This document shows positions 744-60,193 of a stretch of 64,000 nucleotides of DNA, piece after piece. The translations under genes were made by a program, and so were the position numbers. Each line of letters starts with the position of its first letter. Position 1 is the stretch's first letter. Origin of the DNA: Streptomyces sp. NBC_00236 (GTDB taxonomy: Bacteria; Actinomycetota; Actinomycetes; Streptomycetales; Streptomycetaceae); assembly GCF_036195045.1 (NCBI RefSeq), contig NZ_CP108100.1, positions 6,758,001 through 6,822,000 on the forward strand. The letters are read 5' to 3'. The notes beneath the pieces are model-generated. The model had not been told where the DNA came from. It saw nothing but the letters and a program-made list of their open reading frames with translations, and did no database searches.

Positions 744-1628
744 TCAGCCGGCCATCAGCTCCGACACCTTCACGAAGCGGTATCCACGCTTCCGCAGTTC
801 CGGCACCACCCGGTCCACCGCCTCGTCCGTGACCGGTGCCGCGCTGCGGGTGCAGTGCATGACGACCAGCGAACCGGGTTTCACCCCGTCCAGCACCTGC
901 TGCGCCACGGCGTCCGCATCCGTCGCGAAGGCGTCACCACTGACGACGTCCCACTGCACCGCGGTCACCTTCTCAGGCGCGAGCGCGCGCAGGGTGGCGT
1001 CGTCGTAACAGCCACCGGGGAAGCGGAAGTACGGCACCACATTGCGGGCACCGGTCCTGCGGATCGCGTCGAAGGCCCGCTTCACCTCGTGGTGCATCGC
1101 GTCCTTCTCCACGGCCGGCAGCCCGTAGCAGGGTGAGGTGAAGGCGTAGTGGCTGTACGAGTGGTTGGCGATCTCGAAGAGCGGGTCCGTGCCGATGGAG
1201 CGGGCCTGGGCGGGGTACTCCTCGGCCCACCGGCCGGTCATGAAGACGGTCGCCGGTACCTTCAGCCGACGCAGCAGCGCGATCAGTTCCGGATTGTCGA
1301 AGTGCTCGCCGGCGGCCGCGCGCGGCCCCTCGTCGGCGGTCATGTCGGCGTCGAAGGTGAGCGCCACGACCTTGTCCGAACGGTTCGGCCCGCGCTCGAG
1401 AACGGGGGTGAGGCCGGCGGGGCCGGGCGCCATCGTGGGCGGCTTCTCCGCGACCCCGGGCGTTGCCGCGGGCGCGTGGGCCGAGGCGCGTGCGGCGGCG
1501 GTCGTACGGTCCGCGCCCGGGTGCCGGTCGCCACGGGAGTCGCCGGAGGCCGAGCAGGCGACAAGCCCACCACCGAGGACCGCTCCCAGAACGGTCATAA
1601 CCGTCATTTTCCGTGCAAAGTTTGTCAC
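744..1628 (-). CDS. Polysaccharide deacetylase (NodB/CE4) lipoprotein
   Basis: A 294-residue exported CE4-type deacetylase, expected to remove N-acetyl groups from cell-wall peptidoglycan or a similar polysaccharide outside the cell. Residues 1-25 form a lipoprotein signal ending in the lipobox LVAC (Cys25). An Ala/Thr/Pro linker to about residue 75 is followed by the NodB domain. Motif 1 is TFDAD (91-95), a variant of the usual TFDD. Motif 2 is HSYSH (156-160), the metal-binding histidines. Motif 3 is RFPGG (202-206). The downstream VVMHC supplies the late His motif. It is convergent with the small zinc-ribbon gene. Substrate is inferred from family only. Confidence 0.85.
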   Translation of the reverse strand: MTNFARKMTVMTVLGAVLGGGLVACSASGDSRGDRHPGADRTTAAARASAHAPAATPGVAEKPPTMAPGPAGLTPVLERGPNRSDKVVALTFDADMTADEGPRAAAGEHFDNPELIALLRRLKVPATVFMTGRWAEEYPAQARSIGTDPLFEIANHSYSHYAFTSPCYGLPAVEKDAMHHEVKRAFDAIRRTGARNVVPYFRFPGGCYDDATLRALAPEKVTAVQWDVVSGDAFATDADAVAQQVLDGVKPGSLVVMHCTRSAAPVTDEAVDRVVPELRKRGYRFVKVSELMAG

Positions 1629-1820
1629 TCACGGAAAATAGCTGATCAACTGACCGGGAACGGCCTGCGCCGTGACGCGTTCGGCCGGGTGGGTGGCGCC
1701 GCGCGGCGGCACCGGCGCGCCCGCGTCCGTCGAACCCGGTCGAGTCCACGATGCCGTCCGCATCGGGAACGGGGCGCGCCGCCGCTGTGCTCAGCCGGCC
1801 GGTGCCGGTGTGTCAGTGCG

Positions 1821-3194
1821 TCAACGCCACGGGCCCGTCACCGCGAACGTCGTCCCCGGCGTGTAGCAGTTGACGAACATCGTCTCCCGGTCCGGCGCGA
1901 ACGTGACCCCGGCGAACTCGCCCCACTCCGGCTCCTCGGCCGTCCCGATGTTCTGCCGGCCGCGTGCCATGGCGTACACCTCGCCGCCCCGCGTCAGACC
2001 GAACACGTGCTGCGCCCCGCCGCCGTCCTCGCAGACCATCAGTCCGCCGTCGGAGGCGAGGCAGATGTTGTCCGGGGACTCGCCCGGCAGCTGGATGTCC
2101 GTGTCCGGACCGAAGGCGATGACCAGCGTCAGCCGGCGCCGCTTCGGCTCGTAACGCCAGACCTGTCCGAAGTGATCGGCGGCCGAGCCCTCCGCGCTGT
2201 GCGCGAAGCTGGAGACGAAGTAGACCGAGGAGCCGCCCCAGTAACAGCCCTCCAGTTTCTGGCCGTGGGTGATGCCCTTCGGCCCGAAGTCCTGGAAGCG
2301 GATGGCCGTTTCGGCGGCCAGCGGATCCGGTACGGGAACCCACTCGATGCCCTCGAAGCTCGTCCCGGTCTCCTGGACCGCCGAGAGGTCGGGGACCCCC
2401 GGCACCCGCATGGCCTCCAGCCGGCCGCCGGCCCGCAGCGAGCCCGTGCCGCCGAGGGGCTTCTCCGGAAGGAAGCGGTAGAAGAGCCCGAACGGCTTCT
2501 CGAACGCGTCCTCGGTCTCGTACACGATCCCGTTCCGCGGATCGATCGCGATCGCCTCGTGCTGGAAGCGGCCCATCGCGGTCAGCGGTACGGCGCCGGT
2601 ACGGTGCGGATTCGCGCCGTCCACCTCGAAGATGAAGCCGTGGTCCTTGGTGTAGCCGTTGGTGCCGGCCTTGTCCTCGGTCTCCTCGCAGGTGAGCCAG
2701 GTGTCCCACGGGGTGCGGCCACCGGCGCAGTTGACCGCGGTACCGGCGATCGCGACGTGTTCGCCGAGGACGTTGTTACGCCCGTCGAGCTCCAGGGCCG
2801 TACAGCCGCCCTTGCCCATCGGGTCGTACGTGAGCCCCTTGACGGTCGGCACGGCGATCTTCGCGGTGACCCGGTTCTCGTGGTTGCGCACGAGGGTCAC
2901 GTGCCCGCGGCGGCCGGCGAACGCGGCCATGCCGTCGTGGTTGCTGGGCACCGGGCCCTCGCCGGAGCGCAGCGGGTCGCCCTCCCGGGAAAGCACCCGG
3001 TAGCGGAAGCCCCTCGGGAGGTCGAGGAGCCCGTCCGGGTCGGGCACCAGTGGGCCGTAGCCCGCGTGGCCGCGGGCGGCGGCCGTTCCCGCGAAGAGTT
3101 CACCGAAGGCCCCGGTGAAGGCGATTGCGGCGGCTGCGCCGCTGGTGGCCAGGACCTGACGGCGTGTCGCGAAAGGTCGGGATGCGGTTGACAT
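1821..3194 (-). CDS. PhoX-family alkaline phosphatase (Tat-exported)
   Basis: A 457-residue protein of the PhoX/DUF839 family: calcium- and iron-dependent phosphatases that release phosphate from organic phosphoesters outside the cell. The N-terminus has a twin-arginine signal with RR at 11-12 followed by an Ala-rich hydrophobic stretch, as expected for a cofactor-loaded secreted enzyme. Family blocks visible include NHENR near residue 105, the region around TWLTCEETED, and SPDNICLASDGGLMVCED near the C-terminus. Length matches the shorter Streptomyces PhoX group. A possible PHO-box half-site lies about 70 bp upstream, which would fit phosphate-starvation control. The symbol phoX is withheld because paralogues are common in this genus. 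Confidence 0.85.
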   Translation of the reverse strand: MSTASRPFATRRQVLATSGAAAAIAFTGAFGELFAGTAAARGHAGYGPLVPDPDGLLDLPRGFRYRVLSREGDPLRSGEGPVPSNHDGMAAFAGRRGHVTLVRNHENRVTAKIAVPTVKGLTYDPMGKGGCTALELDGRNNVLGEHVAIAGTAVNCAGGRTPWDTWLTCEETEDKAGTNGYTKDHGFIFEVDGANPHRTGAVPLTAMGRFQHEAIAIDPRNGIVYETEDAFEKPFGLFYRFLPEKPLGGTGSLRAGGRLEAMRVPGVPDLSAVQETGTSFEGIEWVPVPDPLAAETAIRFQDFGPKGITHGQKLEGCYWGGSSVYFVSSFAHSAEGSAADHFGQVWRYEPKRRRLTLVIAFGPDTDIQLPGESPDNICLASDGGLMVCEDGGGAQHVFGLTRGGEVYAMARGRQNIGTAEEPEWGEFAGVTFAPDRETMFVNCYTPGTTFAVTGPWR

Positions 3195-3260
3195 GTGGCA
3201 ACTCCCTGTTGGCGGACAGGTGACATGGCATTGTCAAAAGCAGGCCTGCCCGTTCGAGGC

Positions 3261-3271
3261 CCTCGGTGAAC
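3261..3271 (-). promoter_or_regulatory. Possible PHO-box unit upstream of the PhoX-type gene
   Basis: On the minus strand this reads GTTCACCGAGG, close to the 11-bp PhoP repeat unit of Streptomyces. The adjoining 11 bp (GCCTCGAACGG) is only a weak second repeat. It lies about 70 bp upstream of a gene family that is normally PhoP-controlled. This is a single-unit match and may be chance. Confidence 0.3.
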
Positions 3272-3275
3272 GTTG

Positions 3276-3461
3276 TCACGGCCGACCGGCCGGTCCGGTC
3301 CCGACGCTCCGGGGCAGAAGCAGACGGAAGGCCGATCCCGCGCCCGGCCGGGTGTGACCGGATGCGCCGGTCGAGGTCACGCGCAGAGCGGTGGCCGAGC
3401 CGCGCCCGACGAGCGCCTCGCGAAGCGATGAGAAACGCGGGTGTATTTCAGGAGGATTCAA
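3276..3461 (-). pseudogene. Possible remnant of a histidine-kinase C-terminus
   Basis: The end of this short frame reads RVTSTGASGH and then GAGSAFRLLLPR, which resembles the last strands of a HATPase domain in sensor kinases. Third positions are mostly G or C. There is no N-box, no histidine box and no plausible start. It sits alone in the 356-bp gap between the PhoX-type gene and OsmC, so it is best read as a decayed fragment. The alternative is chance coding-like sequence. Confidence 0.25.
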
Positions 3462-3503
3462 GATGCCCGACAGGTGGACGCGGCGCCGCGCGGGAACGGC
3501 GAT

Positions 3504-3537
3504 GCCCCCGGGGCCGGCCGCGGCCGGCCCCGGGGGC
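3504..3537 (-). terminator. Inverted repeat, likely terminator of the OsmC gene
   Basis: A 17-bp perfect inverted repeat (arm GCCCCCGGGGCCGGCCG) starts 13 bp beyond the OsmC stop codon. It has no T-run, as is usual for Streptomyces terminators. It is convergent to nothing, so termination of the minus-strand OsmC transcript is the natural role. Confidence 0.65.
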
Positions 3538-3550
3538 GTCGAGGAACTGC

Positions 3551-3976
3551 TCAGGCGAGCGAGGCGCTCAGGGTGATCGTCGTGCCCGTCAGCGCCTGGC
3601 TGACCGGGCAGTTCGCCTTCGCGTCCTCGGCGGCCTTGACGAAGCCCGCCTCGTCGAGACCCGGCACCTCGCCCTGGACGGTGAGGTGGATCCCGGTGAT
3701 GCCGGTGCCCGGCTGGAAGGTGACCTCGGCCTGGGTGTTCAGCCGGGTCGGCGGGGTGCCGGCCGTGGCGAGACCGTTGGAGAGCGCCATCGAGAAGCAG
3801 CTGGAGTGCGCGGCCGCGATCAGCTCCTCCGGGCTGGTCTTGCCGTTCGCCTTCTCCGCGCGGGACGGCCAGGAGACCGGGTACTCCCCGATCCCGGAGG
3901 AGTCGAGGGTGACGACACCCTTGCCCTCGATCAGGTTGCCTTCCCAGACCGTGTGCGCCTGACGCGTGGTAGCCAT
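3551..3976 (-). CDS. OsmC/Ohr-family peroxiredoxin
   Basis: A 141-residue cytoplasmic thiol peroxidase of the OsmC family, which detoxifies organic hydroperoxides. The two family cysteines are present: Cys60 in AAHSSCFSMAL and Cys123 in ANCPVSQAL. The N-terminal strand motif with WEGNL and the GxLxSP-like block are typical of OsmC rather than Ohr. The start is the ATG at 3976 because GGGAA lies at suitable spacing upstream; the ATG 15 bases further upstream has no good site. It is a single-gene unit closed by a strong hairpin. Confidence 0.9.
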   Translation of the reverse strand: MATTRQAHTVWEGNLIEGKGVVTLDSSGIGEYPVSWPSRAEKANGKTSPEELIAAAHSSCFSMALSNGLATAGTPPTRLNTQAEVTFQPGTGITGIHLTVQGEVPGLDEAGFVKAAEDAKANCPVSQALTGTTITLSASLA

Positions 3977-4060
3977 GCTGGTTCCCTTCAAACGGAATGC
4001 GCGGTTGTACGGGGGTGGCGAGGCACTCCGTCGTGCCTCCCCGGTGTTACGCCCCCGAAC

Positions 4061-5161
4061 CTACTGCGCCACCAGCCCCTTTGCGTCACGCGCCAGAGCC
4101 GTCAGCCGGGAGATTGCCCGGAAGTACTTCTTCCGGTACCCGCCGTTCAGCATCTCCTCGCTGAACAGGCGGTCGAAGGGCAGCCCCGAGGCGAGCACCG
4201 GAACCTCCCGGTCGTACAGCCGGTCCGCGAGCACCACGAGCCGCAGCGCGGTCGACTGGTCGGGCACCGGCTGCACCTCGGTGAGGCACACCGCCCGGAC
4301 GCCGTCCGTCAGCGCGCCGTACCGGCTCGGATGGACGCGGGCCAGGTGGTCGAGCAGCGCGGGGAAGTCGTCCAGGCTGGCACCCTCGGTCGCGTACGCG
4401 GCCCTGGTGACCTGCTCCTCGGAGTAGGGCGGCGGGGCGTCGGGCAGGCCGCGGTGGCGGTAGTCCTCGCCGTCGATGCGCAGCGGGCGGAAGTGCGAGG
4501 ACAGCCCCTGGATCTCCCGCAGGAAGTCGGCCGCGGCGAACCGGCCCTCGCCGAGCTTGCCCGGCAGCGTGTTGGAGGTCGCGGCGAGCGCCACCCCCGC
4601 CTCGACCAGCCGGCTCAGCAGCGAGGAGACCAGTACGGTGTCGCCCGGGTCGTCGAGCTCGAACTCGTCGATGCACAGCAGCCGGTGCCCGCTCAGCGTC
4701 CGCACGGTCTGCTGGAAGCCCAGCGCGCCCACGAGGTTGGTCAGCTCCACGAAGGTGCCGAACGCCTTCAGGGAGGGCGCGGCGGGCGTGGCGTGCCAGA
4801 GCGAGGCGAGCAGATGGGTCTTGCCGACGCCGTAGCCGCCGTCGAGATAGACCCCGCGCGGGCCACTGGGCGCCACGGTCTTCTTACCGCCGAACCACTT
4901 GCGCTTGCCGGCGCCCGTCGCGTGCGCTCCGCCGAGCCCGGCCGCGAAGTCGGAGAGGACCTTGACGGCCTCGATCTGGCTCGGCTGGTTCGGGTCGGGG
5001 ACGTAGGTGTCGAAGCGCACCGAGTCGAAGCGCGGCGGCGGCACCATCTCGGCGACCAGACGGTCGGCGGGGACGTGCGGCTCAAGGGCGCACAGGGACA
5101 GCGGGGCCGTTTCGGCTATGGGGCTGGACCCCGGCACGGCAGTGGAGGAGGACACAACCAC
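4061..5161 (-). CDS. zapE: ZapE/AFG1-type P-loop ATPase
   Basis: A 366-residue AFG1-like ATPase. In E. coli ZapE associates with the FtsZ ring and constricts it under stress; mitochondrial homologues act in protein quality control. Walker A is GGYGVGKT (108-115) and Walker B is LLCIDEFELDD from 161. An insertion with KRKWFGGKK precedes the ATPase core. The start is a GTG at 5161, with GTG 5155 as an alternative. It is divergent from the RibD-like reductase, with only 29 bp between the two starts, so the promoters must overlap. The role in Streptomyces septation is inferred from family. Confidence 0.85.
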   Translation of the reverse strand: MVVSSSTAVPGSSPIAETAPLSLCALEPHVPADRLVAEMVPPPRFDSVRFDTYVPDPNQPSQIEAVKVLSDFAAGLGGAHATGAGKRKWFGGKKTVAPSGPRGVYLDGGYGVGKTHLLASLWHATPAAPSLKAFGTFVELTNLVGALGFQQTVRTLSGHRLLCIDEFELDDPGDTVLVSSLLSRLVEAGVALAATSNTLPGKLGEGRFAAADFLREIQGLSSHFRPLRIDGEDYRHRGLPDAPPPYSEEQVTRAAYATEGASLDDFPALLDHLARVHPSRYGALTDGVRAVCLTEVQPVPDQSTALRLVVLADRLYDREVPVLASGLPFDRLFSEEMLNGGYRKKYFRAISRLTALARDAKGLVAQ

Positions 5162-55733: not shown

Positions 55734-57025
55734 TGCGCGCAGTGGCACGTACGGCAGCGGCTGCGGCCACCGCGCTCGCCCTGCTGCTCACCGGATGCGC
55801 CGGGGACGGCGACGACGGGGCGGACGGGAGGATCCGGATCCGCTTCCAGTCGCTCGCCTGGCAGAAGGAGTCCGTGGACATCAACAGGCAACTGGTGAAG
55901 GAGTGGAACGCGAGCCATCCCGACGTCGAGGTCCAGTACGTCCAGGGCAGCTGGGACAGCGTCCACGACCAGCTCCTGACCTCCTTCGAGGGGGACGAGG
56001 CCCCCGACGTCATCCACGACGCGTCCGACGACCTCGCGGACTTCGCGTACGGCGGCTACCTCGCCGATCTCCGCACGCTCCTCCCGGACCGGCTCACCGA
56101 CGACATCCCCGCGCAGAGCTGGCAGACCGCCACCTTCGACGGCGGCGTCTACGGGGTCCCGTTCCTCCAGGAACCGCGGGTCCTGATCGCCAACACCAGG
56201 ATCCTCAGGGAGTCCGGTGTCCGCATCCCGACCCCCGAGAAGCCCTGGAGCTGGCCGGAGTTCCGCCAGGTCACCAAGGAGCTGACGGGCGAAGGCCGTT
56301 ACGGGGTCGCCTGGCCCCTCAAGGAGCCGGTCTCCGTCACACTCAATCTGGGCCTCTCGGCGGGCGGCCGGCTCTTCCACCGCGGCGCCGACGGAAAGGT
56401 GACGGTCGAGTCGGGCGAGGGCGACCAGGTCGTCCCGGGCACCATCCACGACCAGGTCAACACCGACCACAGCGCCGCCCGCACGGCGCTCGGCATGGGC
56501 GGTGGCGACACGCTGCCCGGCCTCTTCGGCGGGAAGTACGCCATGGTGCCGCTCGGGTTCTCCTACCGCCAGCAGGTGGTCGAACAGGCCCCGAAGGGCT
56601 TCGAGTGGACCGTGCTGCCCGCTCCGGCCGGCAGCGAGGGCCTGGCCCAGGGAGTGAGCCCGCAGACCCTGTCCGTCGCCGAGGACAGCCCGCACAAGAA
56701 GGAGGCCGTGGAGTTCATCGACTTCCTGCTGCGGCCGGCGAACATGGTGCGCCTGGCCAAGGGGGACTGGATGCTGCCAACCGGAACGGCCGCGCTGGCC
56801 GACCCCTCGCTGCACACCGCCGACCTGGGCTGGGCGACCGGCGCCGCCCTCGCGACCGCGCTGCGCCCGGCGCCGGCGCAGTCGGTGCGCGGCTATCCCG
56901 AGTGGAAGGACAAGGTCGCCACACCCGCCCTCCAGGAGTACTACAGCGGGGCGATCGGGGCGGACGAACTGAGGGAGCGTCTGGTGGAGGACGGGAACCG
57001 GGTCCTGGCGCGATATCAGCGCTGA
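55733..57025 (+). CDS. Carbohydrate ABC transporter substrate-binding lipoprotein
   Basis: A 430-residue family 1 solute-binding lipoprotein. The signal peptide ends in the lipobox LLTGC near residue 22. Typical family blocks are WNASHPDVEVQYVQGSWD, APDVIHDASDDLADFAYGGYL and YGVPFLQEPRVLIANTRIL. It delivers a sugar, probably a di- or oligosaccharide, to the two permeases encoded just upstream. The genomic setting near treYZ and glgX makes maltodextrin or trehalose plausible, but this is inference. The last reading frame ends 409 bp before the atropopeptide precursor. Confidence 0.92.
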   Translation: MRAVARTAAAAATALALLLTGCAGDGDDGADGRIRIRFQSLAWQKESVDINRQLVKEWNASHPDVEVQYVQGSWDSVHDQLLTSFEGDEAPDVIHDASDDLADFAYGGYLADLRTLLPDRLTDDIPAQSWQTATFDGGVYGVPFLQEPRVLIANTRILRESGVRIPTPEKPWSWPEFRQVTKELTGEGRYGVAWPLKEPVSVTLNLGLSAGGRLFHRGADGKVTVESGEGDQVVPGTIHDQVNTDHSAARTALGMGGGDTLPGLFGGKYAMVPLGFSYRQQVVEQAPKGFEWTVLPAPAGSEGLAQGVSPQTLSVAEDSPHKKEAVEFIDFLLRPANMVRLAKGDWMLPTGTAALADPSLHTADLGWATGAALATALRPAPAQSVRGYPEWKDKVATPALQEYYSGAIGADELRERLVEDGNRVLARYQR

Positions 57026-57294
57026 CACCGGGCAGAGCACTCAATTACCGACCGGTACGTCTCTTTCTTGCGTCGCACGCCGGGCGGGCCGACCGCCGGT
57101 CGTCTGCCCGCAGCCGAGGCAAGGCATTCCTGAACGGCGGCGATTCAGACACGTCGAGGCTTGAATTTGCGTCTTCACGCCCTTGCTCCGACATGCGCAT
57201 ACGGGTAAGGGCAGGGGGAACGTGCCGTTTCCTATGGGCTGTTGCGAGTGGGTCAAAACTGAACGTGTGGACGCTTTTGGCCGAAAAGGAATTC

Positions 57295-57309
57295 ATTGAC
57301 AACGTCAAT
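57295..57309. promoter_or_regulatory. Candidate operator or promoter element ATTGACAACGTCAAT
   Basis: A perfect 6-bp inverted repeat with a 3-nt spacer, about 125 bp before the precursor ATG. The left arm also supplies TTGACA, the standard -35 hexamer, but no good -10 follows at 17-18 bp. Confidence 0.4.
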
Positions 57310-57340
57310 TGCCCTGGGCTTCACTCCTGTCGGCAGTCAG

Positions 57341-57351
57341 CGGTAAGGGTT
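57341..57351 (+). promoter_or_regulatory. Motif CGGTAAGGGTT, copy upstream of precursor
   Basis: This 11-bp sequence is preceded by GTCAG and recurs exactly before the S8 protease gene (58907-58917), where it is preceded by GTCAAT. A shorter copy, GGTAAGGG, is at 57204. The role is unproven. Confidence 0.4.
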
Positions 57352-57352
57352 A

Positions 57353-57366
57353 TCCGTCCGGACGGA
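57353..57366. promoter_or_regulatory. Perfect 14-bp palindrome TCCGTCCGGACGGA
   Basis: A perfect dyad with no spacer 69 bp before the precursor ATG. Its size suits a dimeric repressor such as a TetR-type protein. No cognate regulator gene is adjacent. Confidence 0.45.
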
Positions 57367-57434
57367 ATCAAACCGCGAGTACTGCCAAATCCTGTCCAAG
57401 GAAAGTAAATCCAGAGCAAAATGGAGGTGCTGTG

Positions 57435-57515
57435 ATGAAGTTCCTTTTTCTGCTGAAGGACAAGATGACGCCGGAGAAGAGCCTGAAGGCGTACGCCTGG
57501 TACCACTGGTACTAG
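57435..57515 (+). CDS. Atropopeptide (tryptorubin-like) precursor peptide, core AWYHWY
   Basis: A 26-residue ORF, too short for standard gene callers, ending in the hexapeptide AWYHWY immediately before the stop. A strong GGAGG lies 7 bp before ATG 57435. The leader MKFLFLLKDKMTPEKS is hydrophobic then charged, followed by LKAY and the aromatic core. Tryptorubin A comes from AWYIWY, so this core differs in one position (Ile to His). The next gene, 115 bp downstream, is a P450, as in known atropopeptide clusters where the P450 forms C-C and C-N bonds between aromatic side chains and the backbone. The peptide is expected to be crosslinked and released by a host protease. The motif match is direct; the product is inferred. 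Confidence 0.9.
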   Translation: MKFLFLLKDKMTPEKSLKAYAWYHWY

Positions 57516-57534
57516 ACCGGCCTGTGAGTCCAGT

Positions 57535-57561
57535 TGACCGAGGGGCCCGGCCCCTCGGTCA
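57535..57561 (+). terminator. Hairpin between precursor and P450 genes
   Basis: A 12-bp perfect stem (TGACCGAGGGGC) with a CCG loop lies 19 bp after the precursor stop. Without a T-run it may act as a partial terminator, giving more precursor than P450 transcript, or protect the 3' end of the short messenger. Confidence 0.7.
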
Positions 57562-57630
57562 GGGCTCGTGTCCCGGCGTGGCCTCACCGGCGCGCCGGGC
57601 GCGGGCGCCTCTCGCTTCTTGGAGACCACG

Positions 57631-58677
57631 ATGCAGATATCCGGTACCGGCAGCCGCGCCCGGGACGTCGTCTTCGCGCCGAGACTCCAGGCGCTCCTGA
57701 CGGATCATCGGGGTGAGGAGGCATTCAGGTTGGACCCCGGCACCGTCGGCGTGGCCGGAGCGTCCCTGACCGACAGCATCCTCGCCGCCAGGCCGGCCAC
57801 CGAGGACGAGCGCCCCACCTTCAAACCTCTTCACGGGCGGTCCATTCCCCGGGCCGAGGCCGCCACCGTCATGCAGGCGATCGGCCGCGACGTGCGGACG
57901 GCCCTGAAGAAGCCCGTGCCCGAGGACGCCGACCTCCGCGGTGAATGGCCGCACGTGGGCCACGTGTACTTGCGTGACCTCCTGCTCGGCGACGACCCCT
58001 ACCGGTTGCGGGTCCTCATGGATCGCGTCCTGGAGCTGACGCCCAAACTCACCTGGTCGGTCATCGTCGCCGGAGCCGCTCTGCCTGGCAGGCTGCGCCC
58101 CGGCGCCGCCGTCTCCGCCATAGCGGGACTCACCGCCGAGGCCGAGGGGTACGGAGACCGCCGTTACGCCATGGGCCTGTACCGCAGGGCCGCGGCCCCG
58201 GTCTGCTTCACCGTCTCGACCCTCGTGGCCAACGCGCTCTGGCTGGGCGCCCCGTTCGACGACGCGGCCTCGAACCGGAACATCCTCTACGAGGCCATGC
58301 GGCTGCTGCCGCCCTCCTGGAACATCCTGCGCAGGGCGTCCCCGGAGTACCCCGCACTCGATCCCCGGATCGGCGACGGCGACGACGTCCTGCTCCTGCC
58401 GCTGCTGAGCCACCGGGACCCCGCGCTCTGGGAGGAGCCCGGTGTGTTCCGGCCGGAGCGCTGGGACAGCCTCGACCCGGACGACCAGCCCGGCTACCTG
58501 CCCTTCGGCCATGAGTCCGAGCGTTGCTGGGGGCGGCACATGGTGATGCCTCTCGCCGAGATGCTGCTCGACATGGTGCGCGGCGGCGGTCTGACGGTGG
58601 ACCCCGCGCAGACGGCCTCCGACGTCCCCCTCGCCGGGCTGATGGGTGTGACGGGTGTGCGGATCGTCCGACGCTGA
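57631..58677 (+). CDS. Atypical cytochrome P450, likely atropopeptide-forming
   Basis: A 348-residue P450, short against the usual 400. ExxR is EAMR (221-224). The heme-binding loop is FGHESERCWG (292-301) with Cys299, but the usual Gly four residues after Phe and the Arg/His two before Cys are Glu. The I-helix acid-alcohol pair is missing; the matching segment reads VSTLVANALWLG (195-206). Such loss is known in P450s that couple aromatic rings rather than insert oxygen. ATG 57631 has GGAG at 6 bp. It directly follows a 26-residue precursor ending AWYHWY, and is the presumed enzyme making the crosslinks. Confidence 0.85.
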   Translation: MQISGTGSRARDVVFAPRLQALLTDHRGEEAFRLDPGTVGVAGASLTDSILAARPATEDERPTFKPLHGRSIPRAEAATVMQAIGRDVRTALKKPVPEDADLRGEWPHVGHVYLRDLLLGDDPYRLRVLMDRVLELTPKLTWSVIVAGAALPGRLRPGAAVSAIAGLTAEAEGYGDRRYAMGLYRRAAAPVCFTVSTLVANALWLGAPFDDAASNRNILYEAMRLLPPSWNILRRASPEYPALDPRIGDGDDVLLLPLLSHRDPALWEEPGVFRPERWDSLDPDDQPGYLPFGHESERCWGRHMVMPLAEMLLDMVRGGGLTVDPAQTASDVPLAGLMGVTGVRIVRR

Positions 58678-58689
58678 AGCGGCCCCTGC

Positions 58690-58726
58690 TCGCCCCGTTC
58701 ATGACGAAGCGTCCTGAACGGGGCGA
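58690..58726 (+). terminator. Terminator hairpin after the P450 gene
   Basis: A 12-bp perfect stem (TCGCCCCGTTCA) with a 13-nt loop begins 12 bp after the P450 stop, closing the two-gene unit. Confidence 0.75.
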
Positions 58727-58906
58727 AGTGCTGTCGCCGGGAACGCGAGCGCGGCAGGAGCGTGGCCGTGATGAGCAGCCGGTGGTGCGCGGTTGGTAAC
58801 GGGCAGTGATTGTGACGGAGTTGAGTGCGGGTGGTCGACTTCCTGTGACGAAACCGTGCTCCGGACGGCTGGGGCACGGAGTGGGTCTTGATCTGCGCGC
58901 GTCAAT

Positions 58907-58917
58907 CGGTAAGGGTT
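58907..58917 (+). promoter_or_regulatory. Motif CGGTAAGGGTT, copy upstream of S8 protease
   Basis: The exact 11-bp motif found before the atropopeptide precursor recurs here, 74 bp before the protease ATG, followed by AATCAA (AATCAA also follows the other copy, but 14 rather than 3 bases later). Confidence 0.4.
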
Positions 58918-58990
58918 TCGAATCAACCCCCGGAGATCTTCCGGCCGAGGGCCAATCCCCCCACAAAGAATGACGAGGAGATCCCTCTTC

Positions 58991-60193
<1,203 letters not shown>

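Follow-up and report, generated by a model that had tools for sequence, protein, structure and literature searches.

A probable minimal atropopeptide gene cluster with the core AWYHWY in Streptomyces sp. NBC_00236, and stem-loops between its precursor and P450 genes

A two-gene locus ending in an inverted repeat

We analysed a window of 64,000 nucleotides from Streptomyces sp. NBC_00236, in which a short precursor gene is followed on the same strand, 115 nt downstream, by a cytochrome P450 gene (Table 1). Translation of the precursor gene gives the 26-residue product MKFLFLLKDKMTPEKSLKAYAWYHWY. The original prediction had described a 26-residue reading frame with a good ribosome site ending in AWYHWY, a P450 behind it on the same strand, and a cluster spanning 57435-58677. 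The frame, its ribosome site, the gene order and these limits proved right, with the P450 probably starting at the ATG at 57631. An in-frame GTG at 57568, the mechanical start of the open reading frame, would give 369 residues; the ATG is favoured because most relatives have 344-356 residues (among the 120 matches listed of 430). The prediction had also bounded the P450 gene with a hairpin. An inverted repeat, probably the hairpin at the 3' end of the operon, indeed follows the P450 gene, and the picture had to be corrected in that stem-loops also lie between the two genes (57536-57606).

Table 1. Features of the AWYHWY locus (positions in the window)
Feature	Position	Strand	Evidence
GGAGG ribosome site of the precursor gene, 7 nt 5' of ATG	57423..57427	+	Sequence; unchanged across an alignment of 13 loci
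Precursor gene (leader MKFLFLLKDKMTPEKSLKAY, core AWYHWY, stop)	57435..57515	+	Translation; NF038372, 59.5 bits; single genome match
Stem-loop A, intergenic, 11-bp stem, 3-nt loop	57536..57560	+	Fold; 72.4% of pairs kept (13 sequences)
Stem-loop B, intergenic, just 5' of the P450 ribosome site, no U tract	57564..57606	+	Fold; covariation; family z-scores
GGAG ribosome site of the P450 gene, 6 nt 5' of ATG	57621..57624	+	Sequence; no variation across 13 loci in alignment
Atropopeptide-type cytochrome P450, 348 aa	57631..58677	+	PF00067; homologues; conserved motifs; AlphaFold2
Inverted repeat after the P450 gene, 11-bp arms	58691..58725	+	Sequence; self-inverted match with L004 and L032

The precursor scores 59.5 bits against the NCBIfam model NF038372 ("tryptorubin family RiPP precursor", tryptorubin_fam), for which the cut-off is 33, and the model has no second match in the genome (E 3.4e-14 for this one); the same search of 14 control genomes returned zero matches. 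A reading frame arising by chance can therefore be set aside, given this score and the single match. That standard gene calling misses such a precursor, as had been supposed, is only partly fair, since the NCBI annotation library holds this model. In two relatives (L009 and L010) the precursor protein is identical to that of the window, with 1 and 3 nucleotide differences, respectively, all synonymous or in the stop codon.

The P450 carries a PF00067 domain, as do all of the best 120 of the 430 homologues found by protein search, the nearest of which is 92% identical among the matches listed. Its ExxR motif (residues 221-224) and heme-binding stretch FGHESERCWG (residues 292-301, Cys299) consist of residues that are invariant or nearly so in 48 P450 sequences. 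The AlphaFold2 model (pLDDT 85.1, pTM 0.87) matches P450 folds with query-normalised TM-scores of about 0.44-0.62 among the 50 matches listed, and the solved structures closest to it in sequence belong to distant P450s. Codon changes are mostly synonymous, with 65 against 22 codons for L009 and 66 against 29 for L031, in a comparison that left out L034 for its difference in length. Related P450s, 59.9-66% identical, also occur on large plasmids in 16 Streptomyces clavuligerus and 2 Embleya records. In a Xanthomonas record (L057:4001-5038) the P450 frame is split, through either decay or sequencing error.

Assignment to the atropopeptide family

According to PMC11450843, atropopeptides are defined by a KSLK motif in the leader and a core with Trp as its second residue (xWxxxx), and the bitryptides among them by an xWxxWx core with a KSLK leader. 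The precursor has KSLK at residues 15-18 and Trp at position 2 of AWYHWY, lies above the NF038372 cut-off, and its core A-W-Y-H-W-Y also has the bitryptide spacing. To examine the pairing of precursor and P450, we assembled 110 loci: the best 80 of 115 from a P450-based contig scan, and 30, including that of the window, from a survey of 392 genomes of the genus with NF038372, which gave 45 matches in 44 genomes. A precursor lies upstream in all of the P450-found 80 (best 80 of 115), 78 being recognised by the motif list and two (L074 and L079) having KNLK and RSFK. Over the whole set, 107 of the 110 loci have a precursor by the motif list, and the other three (L022, L074 and L079) have KNLK or RSFK. 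The 30 survey loci were chosen by their precursor and so provide no independent test of the pairing, for which only the P450-found 80 count. In some precursors (L079:3780-3851, L022, L074, L056 and L109), RSFK, KNLK or QSLK replaces KSLK; the CoreFinder step would miss them, because these motifs are absent from the list given in PMC11450843.

Judged by its homologues and its precursor neighbour, the P450 is of the atropopeptide type. We thus read the locus, with a probability of about 0.92, as a minimal RiPP cluster for an atropopeptide of the tryptorubin type, in which a precursor with KSLK and AWYHWY is followed by a family-specific P450. The predicted assignment from a precursor plus one P450 is supported by NF038372, KSLK, Trp-2, the P450 relatives and the gene order, and the comparison with known members proposed alongside it yielded, besides the 59.5 bits against NF038372, a P450 64% identical to that of the amyxirubin producer. 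We regard the cluster as genuine and as a further member of a known family.

The locus resembles that of tryptorubin A/B in its 26-residue-type precursor with KSLK, its xWYxWY core and its single downstream P450, but has His at core position 4 where tryptorubin has Ile (AWYIWY in the original prediction; tryptorubin B is WYIWY, PMC11450843). The locus L099 of Amycolatopsis xylanica, with the core AWYIWW, is inferred to be the amyxirubin cluster from the organism named as producer in PMC11450843. It shares the two-gene layout, the 64% identical P450 and a strong intergenic stem-loop (z −5.8), and differs from the window at core positions 4 and 6. Biarylitides are likewise minimal P450-crosslinked RiPPs, some with His, but they derive from a five-residue precursor encoded by an 18-bp gene (PMC13417212), without a KSLK leader; we rejected membership in that family for a precursor of 26 residues.

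Chromosomal site

On one side of the cluster lies a solute-binding-protein gene, with homology that stops near 57025, and on the other an S8 protease gene (58991-60193). We considered the S8 protease as the leader protease of the cluster and rejected it as a neighbour rather than a cluster gene, because it adjoins the solute-binding-protein gene in relatives without the cluster. In two of 13 loci inspected, both from genomes without an NF038372 match, the 5' side of the protease gene lies about 91 nt (L119, G002) and about 173 nt (L124, G021) from the solute-binding-protein gene; in the other 11, the two genes were not seen adjacent within the flank of about 1.5 kb. A general protease could still act on the leader. 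The upstream ABC permease and solute-binding protein were rejected as parts of the cluster on the same ground, being kept in L119 and L124 without it.

A second clade with His at position 4 has different flanks. In three of its four loci compared (L035, L036 and L037, not L110), these are homologous to the window from 1826 onward, and in L037 also to 754-1442; the cluster therefore occupies different chromosomal sites. In these three loci it adjoins homologues of the far left end of the window (754-4400), about 55 kb from the cluster of the window. Such a distribution suggests, from sequence comparison, that the cluster may have relocated.

Stem-loops between the precursor and P450 genes

The 115-nt intergenic region of the window folds into two stems with a z-score of −3.27, and none of 200 shuffles was as stable. 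Across the family, z fell below −2 in 75 of 96 distinct intergenic regions (100 dinucleotide shuffles each); of the others, 19 lay above about −2 and two were positive. A second run, which left out one intergenic region longer than 210 nt (L057), gave 77 of 95. Equal-length controls fell below −2 in 2 of 95 cases for the P450 interior, 10 of 95 for stretches upstream and 18 of 93 for stretches downstream, and control gaps between other co-directional genes, placed by a rough gene finder, in 19 of 95 (about 20%). The 3' end of the main stem lies at a median of 24 nt before the P450 start, with the ribosome site downstream of the stem in 73 of 96 regions; a U tract, sought as at least six T in the next 10 nt, followed the stem in 0 of 96.

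For stem B, 95.2% of the cells in the alignment of the window and 12 relatives are paired, five pairs are changed on both sides, and five measures were reached by only 1 to 6 of 500 shuffles; the structure was derived from L009, itself among the 13 sequences, and kinship inflates the covariation counts. Stem A is weaker, with 72.4% of cells paired and two of the five measures unremarkable (reached by 64 and 280 of 500 shuffles). We take the covariation as support for a conserved stem B, not as proof. One stem-loop sequence conserved across the family was not found; the sequence differs between clades, and the family thus shares a strong stem and its place rather than one RNA motif. Rfam gave no match in 56900-59100 at E values up to 1.

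We did not find a stem-loop between atropopeptide genes described in the literature searched, including the main texts of PMC11450843 and PMC12352619. Hairpin passages in two papers that mention tryptorubin concern other peptides. Lantibiotic operons are known to carry stem-loops that separate the genes for precursor and enzymes. In the present locus, the stem-loops would most likely lower P450 output relative to that of the precursor, which would come about through attenuated transcription or a stabilised precursor mRNA. That P450 output can limit yield follows from the sva cluster, where an extra ribosome site before the P450 raised the yield 100-fold (PMC11450843).

A scan for promoters and terminators gave no hit of the first kind and a single, unrelated one of the second. 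A TTGACA block near 57297, common to near relatives, was not named a promoter, a well-spaced −10 box not being found. A perfect 14-bp palindrome, TCCGTCCGGACGGA, occupies 57353-57366 between the upstream gene and the precursor and is not conserved in relatives.

Recurrence of His at core position 4

A reading of the AWYHWY core as rare was not borne out: it occurs in 12 of the 110 loci, that of the window included, with nine distinct P450s from more than one lineage once identical ones are merged, and it is the core of 6 of the 45 precursor matches in the survey of 392 genomes. On a P450 tree of 95 sequences, the nine His rows need six changes, at least four of them forced by well-supported branches, in counts that do not separate gain from loss; a single His-4 clade is rejected (p-AU 2.7e-44). 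A first tree had left out L022, L074 and L079 (outside the motif list), L057 (split P450) and 13 identical P450s, and L074 and L079 were restored in the second. L079 carries AWYHWY with a different leader inside a clade of AWYFWY, AWYVWY and AWYIWY cores. In the seven-member clade to which the window belongs, position 4 is His in some loci and Leu in others, with P450s 85-94% identical to that of the window; over the loci examined it takes H, L, I, F, G, A or V. Position 4 thus looks free to vary, given the repeated changes and the alternation among close P450s.

Among the products described in the literature searched, we saw no bond reported at position 4, and a WPHWY precursor is a substrate of the P450 ScaB, which also tolerates the substitution I25H, giving products at −2 H (PMC12352619). 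ScaB resembles the P450 studied here in taking cores where His precedes the second Trp; it differs in that its substrates are combinatorial or mutant and receive one −2 H crosslink, whereas the window pairs a native His core with its own P450. The claim that His-4 could alter the crosslinks or the fold is unsupported, position 4 being variable and His being accepted there by ScaB, and the likeliest view is that the side chain of His-4 is simply tolerated. We also screened all P450 columns in the window's clade for one that tracks His-4. Residue 222, inside ExxR, was considered and is not claimed: eight of the nine His rows have Ala there, but Phe-4 and Gly-4 usually go with Ala as well, and the four pairs available to an independent-pairs test gave a median p of 0.25.

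In the literature searched we found no product of an AWYHWY core and, in the main texts, no AWYHWY sequence; the core may still be on record elsewhere. PMC11450843 lists more than 650 atropopeptide clusters, which may well include it.

Predicted product and alternative readings

Mature atropopeptides carry crosslinks that join aromatic side chains. In the proposed route, the P450 would bind the precursor at the KSLK region of its leader and couple such side chains by oxidation, forming a Trp2-Tyr3 C-N and a Trp2-Trp5 C-C bond; Trp5 would also close onto a backbone amide, as in varsorubin B1 (PMC11450843). Host proteases would then remove the leader, and often Ala1. The expected [M+H]+ values would be 921.3678 (AWYHWY −4H) and/or 850.3307 (WYHWY −4H), or 923.3835 (AWYHWY) and 852.3464 (WYHWY) for a possible monocyclic −2H form with one crosslink. 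The rule originally proposed, that three crosslinks mean a loss of six hydrogens, is contradicted by varsorubin B1, in which three bonds go with −4 H (791.3540 found, 791.3511 calculated; PMC11450843). It is laurentirubin B, with four bonds, that shows −6 H (824.3401 found; PMC11450843), for which WYIWY −6H calculates to 824.3402. The product of the window need not show the −4H pattern, since P450 phylogeny is a poor guide to product and one cluster yielded both a three-bond and a one-bond product (PMC11450843).

Silence or decay, such that nothing is made in this strain, appears very improbable. A consensus promoter was not found, and many Streptomyces clusters are silent in culture; decay, however, is made unlikely by two intact reading frames, the presence of the key P450 residues, mostly synonymous P450 codon changes, and the conservation of the ribosome sites and stem-loop B. 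A simpler product with a single Trp2-Trp5 crosslink (scabrirubin or varsorubin B2a type, −2 H), lacking the three-bond cage, is unlikely but deserves more weight. The family includes products of this kind (PMC11450843), and ScaB turns WYIWY, WYQWL and WPHWY cores into −2 H products (PMC12352619), but the window retains WY at both positions 2-3 and 5-6, like tryptorubin, and co-expression of lauA with lauB1 led to tryptorubin B with its three modifications (PMC11450843).

It is improbable, too, that His-4 is itself bonded, for example to Tyr6, in a new crosslink pattern. The imidazole as crosslink partner, or as a metal- or proton-binding site, would explain why AWYHWY was reached in separate P450 lineages, a reading to which we likewise give little credence. 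A biarylitide P450 joins Tyr and His, an engineered form joins His-x-Tyr (PMC12352619), and H4-W5-Y6 has that spacing; yet position 4 alternates between His and Leu among the close P450s of the window's clade, no P450 column cleanly tracks His, and ScaB forms ordinary Trp-Trp links despite His within the core (PMC12352619). We therefore retain the tryptorubin-type cage with a tolerated His-4 as the preferred reading, whose AWYHWY product is a testable member of the atropopeptides and would bring an ionisable group into an otherwise mostly hydrophobic cage. The family-wide intergenic stem-loop is a more general point than the His-4 core, and if it controls the ratio of precursor to enzyme, it would offer a handle for raising yields.
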